A stretch of DNA of 64,000 nt from Plantactinospora sp. BC1. Its GTDB lineage: Bacteria > Actinomycetota > Actinomycetes > Mycobacteriales > Micromonosporaceae. Positions 40,133 through 50,166 of this stretch are shown here, piece after piece. Below the pieces are notes generated by a model. It did not search any database, was not told the origin of the DNA, and saw only the letters and a program-made list of their open reading frames with translations. The stretch spans positions 682,001-746,000 of the forward strand of contig NZ_CP028158.1 of assembly GCF_003030345.1 (NCBI RefSeq). The letters run 5' to 3'. Position 1 is the first letter of the stretch; each line of letters opens with the position of its first letter. A program made the position numbers and the translations under genes.

Positions 40133-40428
40133 CCCCGAGGCCGTTCCGGCAATGCCGGGGTGAACTTCCGGGAGATTTCCGGTAGCTGTCGAGGGCGGCT
40201 GACCGGGTGTTCCGGGACCGTCGTCGGCCGCGCACGGGCACGCGTTTTGCCCCGAACCGCGTCGCCTGCCGTACCGGCTGACCGCCAGCGCTGCGCTGGG
40301 TCGCGAGGCACCCCCGCGCGGGAGAAGGACCGGTTTGCCGGGTTAGAGGTGATCGCGCGCGGGGTACCACCACCCGCGTAGCGACGCCCGGCCGGCGCGG
40401 CGGGGCGCTGACCCGAGGGAGCAACCCG

Positions 40429-40734
40429 ATGAGACTCGACGACGACGACATCCGGACCACGGGCGGCGGCGGTGGTGAGGGCCCGGCCGACGGCGGAGCC
40501 AACCCGCAGGGCCGGGACGGTGGCGCGGACGGTGCCGCCGAAGGCCCGGCCGACGCCGGAGCCACCCAGGGGCAGCACGACGGTGGCGCCGACGGCAGCG
40601 CCGAGGGTCCGGCCGACGGCGGCGCGACCCCCGGGCAGCACGACGGCGGGGCGGACGGTGCCGCCGAGGGCCCGGCCGACGCCGGAGCCACCCCGGGGCA
40701 GCAGGACGGCGGCGCCGACAGCGCCGCCCGGTAG
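40429..40734 (+). CDS. Short repeat protein, possible modified-peptide precursor
   Basis: A 101-residue protein with no Cys, Lys, aromatic or large hydrophobic residues after a short start (MRLDDDDIRTTGGGG). One partial unit (EGPADGGANPQGRDGGA) is followed by three 21-residue units of the type DGAAEGPADAGATxGQHDGG and the end DSAAR. The protein is acidic and surely unfolded. An Asp-rich leader-like start, repeated cores and an adjacent JmjC oxygenase nine bases downstream suggest a ribosomal peptide hydroxylated at Asp, Asn, His or Pro (inference). GAGGGAGC precedes the ATG. It could instead be a simple acidic linker protein. Confidence 0.75.
   Translation: MRLDDDDIRTTGGGGGEGPADGGANPQGRDGGADGAAEGPADAGATQGQHDGGADGSAEGPADGGATPGQHDGGADGAAEGPADAGATPGQQDGGADSAAR
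40528..40716 (+). repeat. Three 63-base in-frame tandem repeats
   Basis: Units at 40528-40590, 40591-40653 and 40654-40716 encode 21 residues each. Variation is mostly at third positions or Ala/Gly and Pro/Gln swaps, so the protein pattern is conserved more than the DNA. A diverged partial unit precedes them. Confidence 0.92.
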
Positions 40735-40743
40735 CGCCCGACG

Positions 40744-42183
40744 ATGACCGAGTACGACGGGTCGACCGGCACGGTCGCGGCCCGGTACCGGCCGGAGGCT
40801 TCCCGGGCGGACCTGCCGGACGCACCGCCGACCGGGACACCCCGACCGGCGGTACCGACCCTGCCGGGATCCGATCCGACGACCGGGGCGGGCGGCGACG
40901 GTCGCCCGGCCCGGTCCACCGGCCCGGCGACGGGGCCCGCCCCGGCCAACGGATCGGCGCTGACCCGCTGCGTGGCGGTCGAGCCGGCGAAGTTCGCCGC
41001 CGCGTACTGGGGACGGGCCGCGCTGCTCTCCCGGGCCGCCGAACTCGGCAACCCGGACGGCTTCCGGGACCTGCTCAGCCCGGACGACGCCGACGAACTG
41101 CTCAGCCGGCGCGGACTGCGTACCCCGTTCCTGCGGGTGGCCAGGAACGGCCAGGTACTGCCGACCGGGCAGTACACCGGCGGTGGCGGGGCCGGGGCCG
41201 AGATCACCGACCAGGTACTCGACGAGCGGGTCCTCGCGCTCTACGCCGACGGCGCCACCCTGGTGCTCCAGGGACTGCACCGGACCTGGCCCCCACTGAT
41301 CGACTTCACCCGGGAGCTGAGCCGGCAACTCGGCCAGCCGCTCCAGGTGAATGCCTACCTGACGCCGCCGGGCAACCAGGGCTTCGCCACCCACTACGAC
41401 ACGCACGACGTCTTCGTGCTCCAGGTCGACGGGCACAAGCACTGGCAGATCCACGAGCCGGTGCTGCCCGACCCGCTGGAGCGGCAGCCGTGGGGCGGCC
41501 GGGCCGACGAGGTCGCCGCGGTCGCCGACGGGCCACCGGCGCTGGACGTGGTGCTGGGTCCCGGTGACGCGCTCTACCTGCCCCGGGGCTGGCTGCACAG
41601 CGCCCGGGCCCAGGACGAGAGCAGCCTGCACCTGACCGTCGGGGTCCGGGCACTCACCCGGTACGCGATGGTCGAGGCGCTGCTGGAGTTGGCCACCGAG
41701 GATCCGCGACTGCGCGCCACGCTGCCGTTCGGGATGGACGTGGCCGAGGTCGACCAGGTCGAACCGGAGCTGACCGAGACCGTCGAGGCGCTGCGGGACT
41801 GGCTGCTGCGGGCCGATCCGGGCGAGGTCGCCGCCCGGCTACGGGCCCGGGCCTGGCCGGCGGCCCGCCCGGCGCCGATCCGGCCGCTGGCCCAGGCGGC
41901 GGCGATCAGTGCGGTGCACGCCGACACCCGGCTGGTGCCCCGGGACGGCCTGCGCTGGCGGTTGACGAGCCAGCCGGCCGGCGGGGACGGCAGCCCCGGT
42001 CGGGTCGTGCTGTCGCTCTTCGACCGCACGGTGACCTTCCCCGCCCAGTGCGGGCCGGCACTGCGGGCGTTCCTCTCCGGGGCGGCGGAGCGGGTCGGTG
42101 ACCTGCCCGGGCTGGACGACGACGCCGACCGGATCGTGCTGGCCCGGCGGCTGCTCCGCGAGGCGGTCGCGGTACCGGTCTGA
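40744..42183 (+). CDS. JmjC/cupin-4 family 2-oxoglutarate oxygenase
   Basis: A 479-residue enzyme of the ribosomal-oxygenase-like (cupin_4) family, which hydroxylates protein side chains using Fe(II), O2 and 2-oxoglutarate. Fe ligands are His217 and Asp219 (THYDTHDVF) and His285 (LPRGWLHSA); the Lys in VDGHKHWQIHEP probably binds 2-oxoglutarate. The first 75 residues are Pro/Thr/Gly-rich and disordered; the C-terminal part is a winged-helix-like dimerisation region. It begins nine bases after the repeat protein's stop, so that protein is the likely substrate (inference). No strong ribosome-binding site; translation may be coupled. Confidence 0.85.
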   Translation: MTEYDGSTGTVAARYRPEASRADLPDAPPTGTPRPAVPTLPGSDPTTGAGGDGRPARSTGPATGPAPANGSALTRCVAVEPAKFAAAYWGRAALLSRAAELGNPDGFRDLLSPDDADELLSRRGLRTPFLRVARNGQVLPTGQYTGGGGAGAEITDQVLDERVLALYADGATLVLQGLHRTWPPLIDFTRELSRQLGQPLQVNAYLTPPGNQGFATHYDTHDVFVLQVDGHKHWQIHEPVLPDPLERQPWGGRADEVAAVADGPPALDVVLGPGDALYLPRGWLHSARAQDESSLHLTVGVRALTRYAMVEALLELATEDPRLRATLPFGMDVAEVDQVEPELTETVEALRDWLLRADPGEVAARLRARAWPAARPAPIRPLAQAAAISAVHADTRLVPRDGLRWRLTSQPAGGDGSPGRVVLSLFDRTVTFPAQCGPALRAFLSGAAERVGDLPGLDDDADRIVLARRLLREAVAVPV

Positions 42184-42215: not shown

Positions 42216-42890
42216 TCAGCGGAGCAGGCCGAACAGGGCCCCGGTGGTGACCAGCCCGGCGACCACGACCACCAGCGCGGAGCGTACGTCCAGGCCGGCG
42301 TGCCGCCGGTCGGCGAGTACCCGGGCCGGTGCCAGCCCGACGACCGGGCCGAGGAGCGTCACCAGCAGCCCGAGCACCGGCATGCCCACCGCCAGGTCAC
42401 CGCCGTACCGGTCGCCGACGGTCCGGGCGGCCAGCCCGAGGGCGTACGCGGCGGCCGCGCCGAGCACCCCGAAGAGGGCCAGCAGCGGCCGGGTGGCGCT
42501 CGGCAGCTCGCCCGGTTTCCGGGCCCGGTCCAGCAGCTCCCGGACCCCGTCGAGCAGCGCCTCGACGTCGGCCGGTACGCCCACGCCGTTGCGCGGCACC
42601 GGTGGCTCGCCGACCCGCCGGTCCGCCGCACCGAACTGCCCGCGCAGGATGCTCCAGAGGTGGATCGACTCGGCCTCGGTGCGGTCCACCTCCTGCTGGG
42701 CGTCGGCCACCTCCGCCTCGGCCCGGCGTACCGCCTGCTCCGCGTCGCGTACCGCCCGTTCGGCGGCGGCGCACTGCCGCTCGTACCAGGCGTCCGCCTC
42801 GGCGCGCTCCGCCTCGGCCCGGCCGGTCAGTTCGGCGAGCCGCCGGATCGCCTGCGCGTAGCCGGCCTCCCGTTCCAGGTCGCCGCTCAT
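42216..42890 (-). CDS. Coiled-coil membrane protein of the FtsK-like operon
   Basis: A 224-residue protein. Residues 1-78 form a long charged coiled coil (ERAEADAWYERQCAAAERAV and similar), followed by a linker with a small helical region (90-130). The C-terminus has three hydrophobic segments: about 134-158, 166-192 and 204-223. It is thus a membrane-anchored protein with a cytosolic coil. I do not recognise a family. Its ATG overlaps the stop of the FtsK-like gene (ATGA), so the proteins are made together. It may anchor the ATPase to the membrane (inference). Confidence 0.8.
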   Translation of the reverse strand: MSGDLEREAGYAQAIRRLAELTGRAEAERAEADAWYERQCAAAERAVRDAEQAVRRAEAEVADAQQEVDRTEAESIHLWSILRGQFGAADRRVGEPPVPRNGVGVPADVEALLDGVRELLDRARKPGELPSATRPLLALFGVLGAAAAYALGLAARTVGDRYGGDLAVGMPVLGLLVTLLGPVVGLAPARVLADRRHAGLDVRSALVVVVAGLVTTGALFGLLR

Positions 42891-45718
42891 CGGGACGGTC
42901 CATAGGGGATGATCACTTGACCGGTCCGGTGCACCGAGCGGTCGAAGAAGAGCCCGCGCCACGGCCGGGGGTACCAGTCCGGGCCACCGCCGGCCCCGGG
43001 ATAGAGCGCGGAGGTCAGCTCCGCACCCTGCACGTCGAGCGCGACCCAGGCGCCGATCTGGTCGGTACGCGACGCCGGGCCGCCGAGGTCCGCCCGCAGC
43101 CGGGCCACCCCCCGCCACCAGGCCAGCACGTGGGTACGCCGCTCCGGCCCGTTGTGCAGCACGTGCCGCAGGTGGTCCAGCCCGGTGCGCCGCCCGATCG
43201 TGGTGCCGAGCTGGCCGGCGGCGGCGTCGACGGCGTAGAGCAGCAGGTAGTGCGGCTCGCCCGGGGCGCCGCCCGAGCCCAGCCCGTCGGCGGTCTCGGC
43301 CATCAGCTCGCCGATGTCCTCCTCGGAATACCAGGCGGCGTCGGCGCCGAGCGCCTCGTAGAGCGACCGCGCGGCGGTGTCGGCGTCCGGGTCCAGGCAG
43401 GCGATGGAGAACCGGGCGGTACCGGGGCGGTGCTGGCGGCGCAGCGACCGGGCCGCCGCGTCCAGCACCGCGCAGGCCTCGTCCACCCCGGTGCCCAGCA
43501 CGGCCAGGTTCCGGCCCGGTGCCCGGGGCAGTCGCATCCCGGCCGAGCGCGCCTGCACGTCGATGATCTCGCCGAGCAGCGCCACCGGCCCCCGGGCCCC
43601 GCCACCGGTCCGCTCCGGGCCGCCCGGCCGGTCTCCGCCGGGCTGCGCCGGTGTGCCGCCGTTCGGCACTCCGCCCCGCTCCGGCCCGACCCCCTCGGGC
43701 CAGATCGCGCCGCCGGCCGCGCGGTCCCGGGGGGCGCCGACCGGGGTCGCCTCGCCCGGCGGCCGCAGCGCGACGAAGTCCGGCGCCTCGTCCAGCCGGG
43801 GGATCGCGTCGCCGTCGAAGAGCCGGGCCGGGGCCGCGTCCGGCGGGCGCATCCGCCAGAGCCGGTGCTGGAGGTCGCTCCAGGTGCCCCAGTCGCTGGC
43901 CGCCGGGATCCGGGCCACCTGGTTGCCCTCGGACATCCCGGACTCGGCGTTCACGATCGCGTGGTGCCGGGGCAGCACCTGGGCGGCGTCGTTGCGCTCG
44001 GCCAGGATGCGCAGCGCCTTGGGCAGCGCGATCCGCAGGGTGAACTGGGCGACCAGCGCGGGCCGGCCCCAGAGCGCCTCGATGCCCCGGACGTCCTGCG
44101 AGGCGAGCACCAGGTGGATGCCCTGGGAGCGGCCCCGCCGGGCCAGGTCCTCCAGCAGGTCGGCGGCCTCCCTGGCCACCGCGTCCCGGCCGGCCAGCAG
44201 CATCTGGAACTCGTCCACCACCGCGACGATCCGTGGCCAGCGGCCGGTCGGGTCCACCGCGCGCAGCTCGGACAGCTTGGTCACCTCGTGCCGCTTGGCC
44301 GCGTCCGCCCGGCGGCGCAGCTCCTCGGCAAGGAACCGCAGCAGGGCCAGCCCGAACTCCCGGTCGGTGTTGACGTTGATCCCGACCAGCCGCATGTGCG
44401 GCAGCCAGCTCGGGTCGCGCCGGCCCTGGGCGAACCGGGCGAACGACACCCCCTCCTTGAAGTCCAGCAGATAGAACTCCAGCTCGGCGGGGGAGTAGCG
44501 GGCGGCGAGCGAGCCGATCCAGGCGAAGATCAGGTTGGTCTTGCCGGTACCGGAGGGGCCGCCGATCAGCGCGTGCGGCGGATAGTCGCCCAGGGTCAGC
44601 GTCACCGGCCGGCCCTGTGGACCGTCGCCGATCGGCGCGACCAGACCGGCGGCGGAGTCCTCCCGCCACATCTGGTCGGCCGGCGGGAGCAGGTCGGTGA
44701 AGGGCGTCGGCGGCGGACCGGCGTTGACCCGGGTCGCCACCTCCCGGCAGGTCTCGGTGACCAGCCCGGCCGGCGGGGGCGGGTCGGGAAGCACCGGCAG
44801 GTCGGGGCAGGTGTCCAGCCAGGCGGTGCCGTCGTCGACCACCACCCGGTGCACGTCCGGCCCGTCGGGCAGCTCGATGCCGCGTACCACCAGGTGCACG
44901 CCGCAGGCGGCGCCGGTCCGGGCCACCCGGTCGAGCTGGCCCCGCTCGTGCCGGGAGAGTTCGTCGCCGCCGAGCAGCACCGCGACCCGCCACGGCTCGG
45001 GGCGCCGGCCGGTCGCCGCGGCCAGCTCGCGCAGCGAGGAGTACTCGCCGGCCAGCACCGTCTCGTTGATCCGGCGGATCTGGTCGACGAGGTCGTCGAG
45101 GAGCCGGGCCAGGCCACCCGGCCCGACGAAGGTCAGCAGCCCGGCGGTCGAGAGCGGGGCGAAGCCGGCCAGCCCGCCGCCGAGGTGTTCCGGGTCGTAG
45201 CCGACCAGCCGCAGCGCGCCGGGATCGGCCCGGCCCAAGGCCCGGAGCAGCAGCGCGGCGACCACCTCGTCGCAGCCGCCCCGGTCGGCCCCGGAGAGGT
45301 GTACGTGGCCGGCGTCGAGCAGCGGCACCAGCGCCGGTACCGGCACGGCGCCGTCGACCCGTACGGTGCCGATCCGCAGCGGTCCCGGTGCCTCGCCCCG
45401 GATCACCGGGGTCGGTTGCCAGCCGGCCCAGTCCGTACCGGCGGCACCGGGCGCCTCCCGGGCGGCGGCCTCGGCGGCCCGGGTGGCGAGCCGGCCGATC
45501 TCCGCCGCGTACCGGTCGGAGAGTTCGGCCACCCGACGGTCCCGTTCCGCACCGACCCGGTCGGGTACCCGGGCAGCGGCGTCCCGGATCCGGCGCAGCC
45601 GGTCCTGTGCGCCGCCGAGTTCGGTCCGCGCCGCCGTGAGCCGGGCCCGGGACGCGCCCAGGGCGTGCGACAGCATGGTGCGGACCCGGTCGACGAGCTG
45701 GGTCCGTAGGTCAGGCAT
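42887..45718 (-). CDS. FtsK/SpoIIIE-type ATPase, single motor domain
   Basis: A 943-residue protein. Residues 1-95 are coiled coil, 100-340 hold a diverged Rossmann-like half (VHLSGADRGGCDEVVAALLL, WRVAVLLGGDELSRHERGQL), and 360-640 the FtsK/SpoIIIE motor with Walker A IGGPSGTGKTN (Lys393), LLDFKEGVSFARFA and Walker B IVAVVDEF (Asp502-Glu503). The C-terminal third contains another nucleotide-binding-like region (GRNLAVLGTGVDEACAVLDA) without a full P-loop. There is no transmembrane helix. It differs from ESX EccC proteins, which have three motor domains, and from FtsK itself. Overlaps both neighbouring genes. Confidence 0.88.
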   Translation of the reverse strand: MPDLRTQLVDRVRTMLSHALGASRARLTAARTELGGAQDRLRRIRDAAARVPDRVGAERDRRVAELSDRYAAEIGRLATRAAEAAAREAPGAAGTDWAGWQPTPVIRGEAPGPLRIGTVRVDGAVPVPALVPLLDAGHVHLSGADRGGCDEVVAALLLRALGRADPGALRLVGYDPEHLGGGLAGFAPLSTAGLLTFVGPGGLARLLDDLVDQIRRINETVLAGEYSSLRELAAATGRRPEPWRVAVLLGGDELSRHERGQLDRVARTGAACGVHLVVRGIELPDGPDVHRVVVDDGTAWLDTCPDLPVLPDPPPPAGLVTETCREVATRVNAGPPPTPFTDLLPPADQMWREDSAAGLVAPIGDGPQGRPVTLTLGDYPPHALIGGPSGTGKTNLIFAWIGSLAARYSPAELEFYLLDFKEGVSFARFAQGRRDPSWLPHMRLVGINVNTDREFGLALLRFLAEELRRRADAAKRHEVTKLSELRAVDPTGRWPRIVAVVDEFQMLLAGRDAVAREAADLLEDLARRGRSQGIHLVLASQDVRGIEALWGRPALVAQFTLRIALPKALRILAERNDAAQVLPRHHAIVNAESGMSEGNQVARIPAASDWGTWSDLQHRLWRMRPPDAAPARLFDGDAIPRLDEAPDFVALRPPGEATPVGAPRDRAAGGAIWPEGVGPERGGVPNGGTPAQPGGDRPGGPERTGGGARGPVALLGEIIDVQARSAGMRLPRAPGRNLAVLGTGVDEACAVLDAAARSLRRQHRPGTARFSIACLDPDADTAARSLYEALGADAAWYSEEDIGELMAETADGLGSGGAPGEPHYLLLYAVDAAAGQLGTTIGRRTGLDHLRHVLHNGPERRTHVLAWWRGVARLRADLGGPASRTDQIGAWVALDVQGAELTSALYPGAGGGPDWYPRPWRGLFFDRSVHRTGQVIIPYGPSR

Positions 45719-46577
45719 GGGTGTCCCGGGGTGCGCGAGCGGTGACGGGGCGCTGGTCGACGCCGAGCCGGCGCATCAGCAGTCCGGTGAGGACCCCGGC
45801 GGCGACCGCCGGGTCGGCCGGGTGCGGCTGCTCGACGGGTTCCTTCGGCGGCGGCATCCGGCAGAGGCGGCTCAGCACGGTGTCGAGCACCCCGGGTGGC
45901 AGGTTGGGCACCAGGTCCTTGACCCCTCCGGTGACCTCGCGGCGCAGCCTCGGCAGGTCCGCCGCCCGGGGCGGGTGGCCGAGCAGGGCGGTGGCCAGGT
46001 CCCGCAGCATCGGCGGGGCGACCGAGGCGAGGCCCAGCCCGACGTTCGCCTCCACGGCGCGCAGCTCGGTGTGCAGCCGGGTCCGGTCGCCGGAGCGGAC
46101 CCCGCTGGTCACCCGACGGAGCAACTCCTCCGGGTCGGTGATCTCACGGTCCGGCTTGGGTGCCGGGGTGTCCCGCCGGTCGAAGAGTTCGGCGACCCGG
46201 ACCGACCACCAGCCGCCGGTCGCGGCGGGAGCGGCCCGCCGGACCGGCCCGGACGCGTCGGTCGGGCCCCGGGTGCCGGGACGACCCGCCGGCCGCTGCG
46301 GGCCGCCGGCCGGCGGCCCGTCCCGGCCCAGCCCGATCGCCGCCAGGTACGTCGCGAACTGGTCCTGGGCGAGCCGCAGCGCGTGCCCGGCCGTCTCCAG
46401 GTGTTCGGTGGCGGCGGAGAGTTCGGGTACGCCCATCGGGTCGGCCGACTCCTGCCGGACCCAGCGCAGCCGCTCGGAGGCGAGTTTCAGGTGGTCGAGT
46501 GCCTTGATGACCAGCTCGACCGGCAGCTCGTCGGAGGCGGCCCGGACCCGGGCGCCCAACTCCTCGATGATGGACAT
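45711..46577 (-). CDS. Helical protein of the FtsK-like operon
   Basis: A 288-residue soluble protein without recognised family. The N-terminal 85 residues are helical (LPVELVIKALDHLKLASERL, TEHLETAGHALRLAQDQF) and similar in size to a WXG100-like hairpin. A Gly/Pro-rich linker (90-120) follows, then a second helical domain ending about residue 270 with Pro-rich turns. Its ATG lies eight bases after the 86-residue protein's stop, and its end overlaps the FtsK-like start by eight bases, so the order is substrate-like protein, this protein, ATPase, membrane protein. Role unknown. Confidence 0.78.
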   Translation of the reverse strand: MSIIEELGARVRAASDELPVELVIKALDHLKLASERLRWVRQESADPMGVPELSAATEHLETAGHALRLAQDQFATYLAAIGLGRDGPPAGGPQRPAGRPGTRGPTDASGPVRRAAPAATGGWWSVRVAELFDRRDTPAPKPDREITDPEELLRRVTSGVRSGDRTRLHTELRAVEANVGLGLASVAPPMLRDLATALLGHPPRAADLPRLRREVTGGVKDLVPNLPPGVLDTVLSRLCRMPPPKEPVEQPHPADPAVAAGVLTGLLMRRLGVDQRPVTARAPRDTHA

Positions 46578-46585
46578 CCGCTGCT

Positions 46586-46846
46586 CTACAGCGTCGAGAC
46601 GTAGAGCTGGGCGTGTTCGACGGCGGCGAGCGTCGCGGCGAGGCACTCCTCCAGCTCCTGGGCGGCCTGCGACAGCGACGCCTGCGCGGCGTCGACAGTG
46701 GAGTGTCCACTCCCCTCCAGCGCCCCGGCCAGGGTCTGCTGGGCCTCGGCGAGCTTGTCGCTGGCGGCCTGCACTGCGGCCTGGCCGTCGCCGATCTGCT
46801 GCAGTGCGGCGTCGATGGCCGCTTTCAGCTCGGCGACACTCGCCAC
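46586..46846 (-). CDS. 86-residue helical protein (WXG100-sized)
   Basis: An 86-residue, Ala-rich protein predicted as two long helices: VAELKAAIDAALQQIGDG to QTLAGALE, a turn at GSGHST, and VDAAQASLSQAAQELEECLA to the end. Size and helix-turn-helix hairpin layout resemble ESAT-6/WXG100 secreted proteins, but the turn has no Trp-x-Gly and there is no C-terminal YxxxD/E export signal. First gene of the FtsK-like operon. GTG start, with AGGAGG seven bases before it. A perfect palindrome lies 26 bases upstream. Confidence 0.78.
   Translation of the reverse strand: MASVAELKAAIDAALQQIGDGQAAVQAASDKLAEAQQTLAGALEGSGHSTVDAAQASLSQAAQELEECLAATLAAVEHAQLYVSTL

Positions 46847-47598: not shown

Positions 47599-50166
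<2,568 letters not shown>

Follow-up and report, generated by a model that had tools for sequence, protein, structure and literature searches.

A probable RiPP-like pair of an acidic tetrapeptide-repeat protein and a JmjC_2 oxygenase in Actinomycetia

A 64,000-nucleotide stretch of the Plantactinospora sp. BC1 genome (the window) carries a gene for a short, acidic repeat protein directly followed by a gene for a JmjC-type oxygenase, which raises the question of whether the enzyme acts on the peptide encoded beside it. We consider it probable that the two form a RiPP-like system, in which a JmjC_2 enzyme hydroxylates Asp residues of a tetrapeptide-repeat substrate. The system has two genes in the window and three in most of the related loci seen. 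The peptide gene and the elements ahead of it are located as follows.

40340..40371, + strand: conserved upstream element GGGTTAGAGGTGATC...GGGGTACCACC, a possible promoter or regulatory site, recognized from Micromonosporaceae upstream regions
40415..40421, + strand: probable ribosome-binding site of the peptide gene, GAGGGAG (CGAGGGAGCA in 35 of 60 upstream regions)
40429..40734, + strand: acidic repeat peptide of 101 amino acids, a putative precursor or substrate; open reading frame without a Pfam or NCBIfam family
40429..40476, + strand: leader-like N-terminus MRLDDDDIRTTGGGGG, residues 1-16, with the pattern M-x-L/I-[N/D/S]-D-D-D-[I/M] in alignment A1
40477..40728, + strand: four tandem 21-residue units EGPADGGATPGQHDGGADGSA (TRF), residues 17-100, composed of [D/E]-x-x-A tetrads

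Within the 60 Micromonosporaceae upstream regions, GGGGTACCAC occurs in 34, and GGGTACCAC lies 49-68 nt ahead of the peptide start codon in the 36 regions that have it. The first-pass annotation of this DNA described a 101-residue acidic protein starting with MRLDDDDIRTT, and the open reading frame bears out both points, with a net charge of -16. That annotation counted three repeat units of exact length. The exact length holds, but the number is four (TRF: 40477-40728, period 63 nt, 4.0 copies, 80% matches), with bounds at residues 17-37, 38-58, 59-79 and 80-100. Among the positions it took to be fixed, Asp, most Gly and the E-G-P stretch are indeed constant across the units, but His varies (R, H, H and Q from the first unit to the fourth), as does the second Pro. 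DNA change between the units was said to be mainly silent; the six unit pairs together contain 32 synonymous and 39 non-synonymous changes, and dS exceeds dN in all six, in one pair barely. Selection on the peptide, also proposed at that stage, is evident between species: dN/dS is 0.11 and 0.13 against the nearest two equal-length orthologues (L002 and L004), and the median is 0.13 for pairs with dS below 2 among 188 equal-length pairs. The peptide gene is thus under purifying selection between species. The window peptide has no match in NCBIfam, Pfam or PADLOC, and four other peptides have none in Pfam at E 10.

The enzyme gene begins nine bases after the peptide gene, as first reported, and its assignment to the cupin-4/JmjC group is confirmed by a PF08007 match of 102.7 bits (curated cut-off 22; E 1.3e-29), the only one in the 8.33-Mb, one-contig genome. 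Its features are given below.

40744..42183, + strand: JmjC_2 (PF08007) 2OG/Fe(II) oxygenase of 479 amino acids with NO66/MINA53/YcfD architecture (PF08007 profile)
41392..41400, + strand: iron ligands H217-Y-D219, with H and D kept in 50 of 50 enzymes of the clade defined below
41596..41598, + strand: third iron ligand H285, kept in 49 of 50 clade enzymes, the exception (L178) being a fragment gapped there
41881..42180, + strand: C-terminal winged-helix domain, residues 380-479, a candidate leader-binding (RRE-like) domain, placed by the model and by the NO66/YcfD alignment, which extends to residue 479

The iron site is intact, with H217, D219 and H285 at the numbers originally given. By sequence and predicted fold, the alignment of the enzyme with NO66, MINA53 and YcfD spans residues 63-479 and takes in the winged helix, and its model shows the JmjC, dimerisation and winged-helix architecture of ribosomal oxygenases (RIOX/YcfD). 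This model was built on 26 sequences, with a mean pLDDT of 73 and a large rmsd to NO66 (8-10 A). In the model, the C-terminal domain runs through strands and then helices. Pfam PqqD did not match this domain at E 10, and a PDB search with the last 87 enzyme residues returned nothing meaningful. There was no PqqD/RRE chain among the 50 structure matches listed, a result that is uninformative.

A scan with the enzyme as query, in which 84,980 species were represented by a single genome each and close relatives alone are detected, gave 62 loci, all in genera that we take to be Micromonosporaceae; among the named relatives found, Plantactinospora mayteni comes closest, at 88% enzyme identity. The peptide is encoded directly upstream on the same strand in every one of the 62. 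Complete open reading frames are present in 57 (including L029, which has an N gap), the gene is split by an assembly gap in L026, the L059 peptide goes out of frame after two units, and in L021, L031 and L036 the contig begins within the gene so that the last units alone are visible. An alignment of 20 peptides gives M-x-[L/I]-[D/N/S]-[D/N/E]-D-D-[I/M/L/F], followed by E-G-P-x-D-[G/A]-G-A ... D-G-G-A-D units. Comparison of repeat counts across relatives, recommended in the first-pass annotation, revealed a variable number of units in peptides of 58 to 222 residues. The gap between the predicted peptide and enzyme genes is -26 to +15 nt where an enzyme start was found (none lies within -30 in L044 and L048), and the pair may be translated from one message. 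The longest peptide, from Micromonospora pattaloongensis (L012:7307-7975), has expanded to 222 residues and contains long stretches of GAD-type tetrads.

The association extends through the class. PF08007 is present in 109 of 296 class genomes, and the peptide profile A1, for which scoring was limited to 16 first-look candidates per genome, matches 40 of them with 45 matches. All 45 lie 332-658 nt upstream of a same-strand JmjC_2 match, and none sits apart from a JmjC_2 gene. We assembled 90 JmjC_2 loci (the window, 29 others and 60 more; further, mostly weaker PF08007 places lie outside this set), and their similarity to the window enzyme is bimodal, with 50 loci at 244 bits or more (the clade) and 40 at 150 or less (the distant loci). 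DGGA repeats, defined as at least four D[GA]G[AS] motifs in 80 residues, are encoded upstream in 46 of the 50 clade loci and in 0 of the 40 distant loci, none of which reaches three. The other four clade loci have acidic peptides of different composition, two with the leader kept (L147, ALDDSDMKTT; L152, ALTDDDILTT) and two with it missing (L132 and L137). A quick tree of 90 rows, from which the fragments L178 and L164 were dropped and to which Streptomyces clavuligerus and Pseudanabaena proteins were added, places 49 clade rows together with support of 85, and 47 of these with support of 97. The clade spans 19 family codes of the sample, 17 of them with DGGA repeats. In a phylum sample, the profile matches 9 of 296 genomes, all nine in the same class as the window. 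The enzyme had no match in phages. On plasmids, 117 JmjC records were found, all below 60% identity; two of these loci were examined, and the JmjC_2 rows listed are described, where annotated, just as 'cupin' or 'cupin domain-containing protein'.

A lack of conserved pairing in related genomes had been named as the observation that would speak against the system, and the pairing was instead found in 62 of 62 Micromonosporaceae loci and 50 of 50 clade loci, the four with non-DGGA acidic peptides included. This is the linkage of precursor gene and modifying enzyme by which RiPP systems are recognized, with the peptide as the presumed substrate.

The composition of the repeats suggests which residue might be modified. 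Across 107 peptides (the window's counted twice), 60% of acidic residues recur at lag 4, compared with 18% in shuffles; because of this periodicity, we take the basic unit to be the tetrad [D/E]-x-x-A. The repeat is almost pure DGGA in some lineages, and the number of D[GA]G[AS] motifs within 80 residues ranges from 4 to 17 in the 46 clade peptides. D, G and A are the sole residues common to all 46 repeat regions, and in L149, whose enzyme has all three iron ligands, the repeats contain nothing else. Since Asp alone among these three has a functional side chain, any modification of the repeats would most plausibly target it, and from sequence comparison Asp, not His, is the likely site of hydroxylation. 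We propose that the short gene would yield a disordered, strongly acidic peptide of [Asp/Glu]-x-x-Ala tetrads, which in the window form four 21-residue units after an M-x-L-D-D-D-D-I leader, and that the JmjC_2 enzyme would be its dedicated maturase. The C-terminal winged helix would probably capture the leader while the Fe(II)/2-oxoglutarate site moves along the repeats, hydroxylating most probably the Asp beta-carbon. Several residues that the clade conserves (R126, Q176, H179, W182 and P208) differ for the most part from those of the 40 distant actinobacterial enzymes. R126 is present in 50 of 50 clade enzymes, with E at that place in 25 of the 40 distant ones, and invariant residues of this kind could bind an acidic substrate.

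The third gene of most clade loci encodes a Suc_Fer-like [2Fe-2S] protein. By tblastn, 38 of the 50 have this gene, starting about where the enzyme gene ends (the weakest matches being L152 at 2e-07 and L147 at 3e-19), and PF06999 was confirmed for the three genes tested (L197, L189 and L204). For most of the 12 clade loci without a match, the DNA covered reaches no more than about 1.5 kb past the JmjC match; the gene is absent from the wider DNA of L185, L186, L191 and L202. It was found by tblastn in 0 of 62 Micromonosporaceae loci and in one of the 40 distant loci (L182), and the whole genome of the window contains no PF06999. In the wider loci L214-L216, three Suc_Fer genes lie near distant JmjC genes on the opposite strand. 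Where it is present, this protein might be a redox partner supplying electrons. Besides Suc_Fer, no gene recurs in at least 3 of 20 wider clade loci under crude calling of open reading frames.

The hydroxylated peptide might be a metal-binding agent, with beta-hydroxy-Asp at every fourth residue forming an iron (or calcium) buffer, intracellular or released, that the Fe-S partner reduces or unloads. We regard this as rather unlikely; it extends the Asp-hydroxylation explanation and does not exclude it. Beta-hydroxyaspartate is a classical Fe(III) ligand, and ribosomal peptide metallophores exist as a precedent. The position of the Suc_Fer-like gene directly downstream in those 38 loci also favours a metal buffer, as does an FhuF-like protein in another JmjC group, which recurs at a distance of 1.3-7.4 kb on the downstream side in 5 of 20 wider loci (in the one tested, PF11575 scored above its cut-off at 5.4e-05 and PF06276 below). 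Against it, the genome of the window lacks PF06999, the Fe-S protein may instead hold the oxygenase iron reduced, and no IdeR/DmdR-type iron box was found upstream of the pair. The best matches have at least 8 mismatches and do not surpass those of shuffles, and the conserved upstream element is not an iron box.

The first-pass annotation saw no ATP-grasp, YcaO, lanthionine or radical-SAM enzyme nearby, and none is present among the nine neighbouring open reading frames that we scanned (eight with Pfam, and the ClpB-like one at 47599-50166 with NCBIfam). A point against the proposed system, as regards maturation and release, is that no protease or transporter gene recurs within 8 kb of the pair in Micromonosporaceae; housekeeping proteases might take part. 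The commonest recurring downstream neighbours in this family are FtsK-like, 86-residue and 311-residue proteins on the opposite strand, with ClpB farther away, a neighbourhood that looks like ordinary synteny. In the window, positions 42887-46846 (- strand) encode an FtsK/EccC-like ATPase (943 aa, found in 48 of 63 loci), the 311-aa protein and the 86-aa protein, syntenic in Micromonosporaceae; the last has a sub-threshold WXG100 match (E 0.0011). This region is possibly a type VII-like secretion module beside the pair.

Returning to hydroxylation of the repeats, the enzyme could act on a residue other than Asp, namely His, as do NO66 and MINA53, or Pro in the GQHDGG stretch. His precedes DGG in many units, for example in Salinispora and the f2 genomes. 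Yet His and Pro are each found in only 37 of the 46 repeat regions, and the repeats of L149, L090 and L126 have neither, so we judge such a target unlikely. It is similarly improbable that the peptide is a partner and not a substrate, that is, an acidic disordered inhibitor, chaperone or delivery factor for an enzyme whose true substrate is elsewhere. The window peptide is predicted to be disordered (mean pLDDT 47, uninformative as a fold), and its many repeats could titrate the enzyme, but the variable motif number and low-complexity expansion better suit a processive substrate, and JmjC enzymes have precedents in RiPP pathways.

The leader motif was detected in 33 of 50 clade peptides with a strict pattern, or in 36 when L141, L150 and L134 are scored by eye, and is missing in 14, L144 (MNDDDTM) being scored as missing; this minority speaks against the proposed system. 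With those three scored by eye, leader and window-like C-terminal domain occur together in 35 loci, the leader alone in none, the domain alone in one and neither in 13. On the tree, which included the C-terminal columns, no more than one or two independent changes underlie this co-variation, and it does not reach significance.

Relatives of the window enzyme with solved structures act on ribosomal proteins, and another substrate is possible for this reason; that it is an ordinary ribosomal oxygenase (of a uL16 Arg or a His) beside an unrelated or regulatory peptide is nevertheless unlikely, for although NO66, MINA53 and YcfD are nearest in sequence and fold, every clade locus examined is paired, none of the 45 peptide matches lies away from a JmjC_2 gene, and a ribosome modifier would not be expected to be confined to 40-50 of 296 genomes.

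Short acidic peptides are also encoded at the distant loci, where a short open reading frame in 30 of 40 carries a conserved acidic tail of one of four kinds: '...EVTSRDITAGGDSDGTDSSSDFI' in 12, the '...SDGGGTGRSDxND' type in nine, the '...SDSDGSDG' type in eight and (STDADAD)n in one. These patterns were written after inspection of the open reading frames and match 0 of 40 loci on the reverse strand and 0 of 50 clade loci. No match was found in the other ten distant loci (L076, L123, L130, L153, L155, L156, L157, L163, L164 and L181). Together with the clade, 80 of 90 JmjC_2 loci have a short acidic peptide. We tentatively raise the possibility that the clade represents a class of ribosomal peptide, new and ancient, across Actinomycetia, in which a JmjC enzyme, acting alone and equipped with an RRE-like arm, would hydroxylate the aspartate at every fourth residue of poly-(Asp-Gly-Gly-Ala) chains and so produce a genetically encoded poly-hydroxyaspartate metal buffer with a [2Fe-2S] partner. 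It would then be the best-defined branch of a wider rule, by which most actinobacterial JmjC_2 enzymes (80 of the 90 loci seen) may be maturases of short Asp-rich peptides and not ribosome modifiers.

Individual distant groups have features of their own. Twelve loci (L159-L162 and L165-L172) form a separate JmjC_2 group behind a peptide of about 35 residues, MDPIEVEVEDLAEVTSRDITAGGDSDGTDSSSDFI, with an S9 prolyl oligopeptidase upstream in 4 of 20 wider loci and, in 5 of 20, the FhuF-like protein on the downstream side (Pfam was run on one of each); this is likely a separate RiPP pathway. Nine loci (L065-L067, L069, L078, L080, L086, L125 and L135) have an upstream short peptide ending in SDGGGTGRSDxND or a close variant, and in eight others (L158, L173-L177, L179 and L180) a LVVAVETLxxVxDR-like stretch precedes the acidic SDSDGSDG-type tail. 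L182, outside the DGGA clade, encodes the (STDADAD)n repeat peptide upstream of JmjC_2 and the Suc_Fer-like protein downstream, possibly a convergent repeat. On the Streptomyces clavuligerus megaplasmid pSCL4 (L183:5772-12187), a 48-residue DPxDP peptide ending in AIADPDPFDPVI lies ahead of a JmjC gene, followed by the genes of an S9 peptidase, on the opposite strand, and of an ABC transporter, in what looks like an uncharacterised RiPP cluster. A Pseudanabaena plasmid (L184:1-4167) encodes a LanM lanthipeptide synthetase near a JmjC (cupin) gene.

The pair is a conserved one with a substrate-like peptide, found in 19 actinobacterial family groups that include the antibiotic-producing Micromonosporaceae, and no characterised member was found. 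It gives actinobacterial JmjC_2 proteins a testable substrate and, as a minimal RiPP-like system of one enzyme and a tetrapeptide repeat, lends itself to studies of processive hydroxylation. It also points to a possible evolutionary meeting place of ribosomal oxygenases and RiPP maturases.

The first-pass annotation knew no characterised system of this make-up, and our full-text literature search, with most subscription papers outside its reach, likewise turned up no description of the DGGA-type peptide with its JmjC_2 enzyme. RiPP pathways with JmjC hydroxylases are already known. An aKG-dependent dioxygenase reportedly carries out macrocyclisation in RiPPs (Xia et al. 2025). NO66, MINA53 and YcfD share the fold over residues 63-479 and the iron site with the window enzyme, whose clade differs in its own conserved residues listed above and in its dedicated peptide gene. 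FIH is a JmjC Asn/Asp hydroxylase of folded ankyrin repeats; unlike the window pair, it has a folded substrate and no gene linkage. Bufferins, which are MNIO-modified peptide metallophores, resemble the pair in combining an iron oxygenase with a small, widespread peptide, but they depend on another enzyme family and on Cys chemistry.

Closer parallels are found among RiPPs. The JmjC or JmjC-related Orn hydroxylases BipG, BpmG and PbsQ are described as acting on ribosomal precursor peptides of biphenomycin type (PMC12257519, PMC12707348), the feature that the window pair would share if its peptide is the substrate. As those pathways are described, JmjC provides one tailoring step alongside those of MNIO, arginase, B12-rSAM and a TldD-type protease, whereas in the window it is the only recognised modifying enzyme and the putative substrate is an Asp-rich repeat. 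The window precursor has no FHAFRF-like motif, and neither MNIO nor B12-rSAM occurs among the nine neighbours scanned. Fusions of PF08007 with RRE-like domains are described in fish and algae, with the closest bacterial homologues in RiPP-like contexts (PMC12710340). The passage concerned does not specify a peptide family, a repeat, an Fe-S partner or a taxonomic range, unlike what is found for the window system, but the bacterial JmjC homologues it describes combine PF08007, a winged-helix domain and a short peptide neighbour, as does the window pair.
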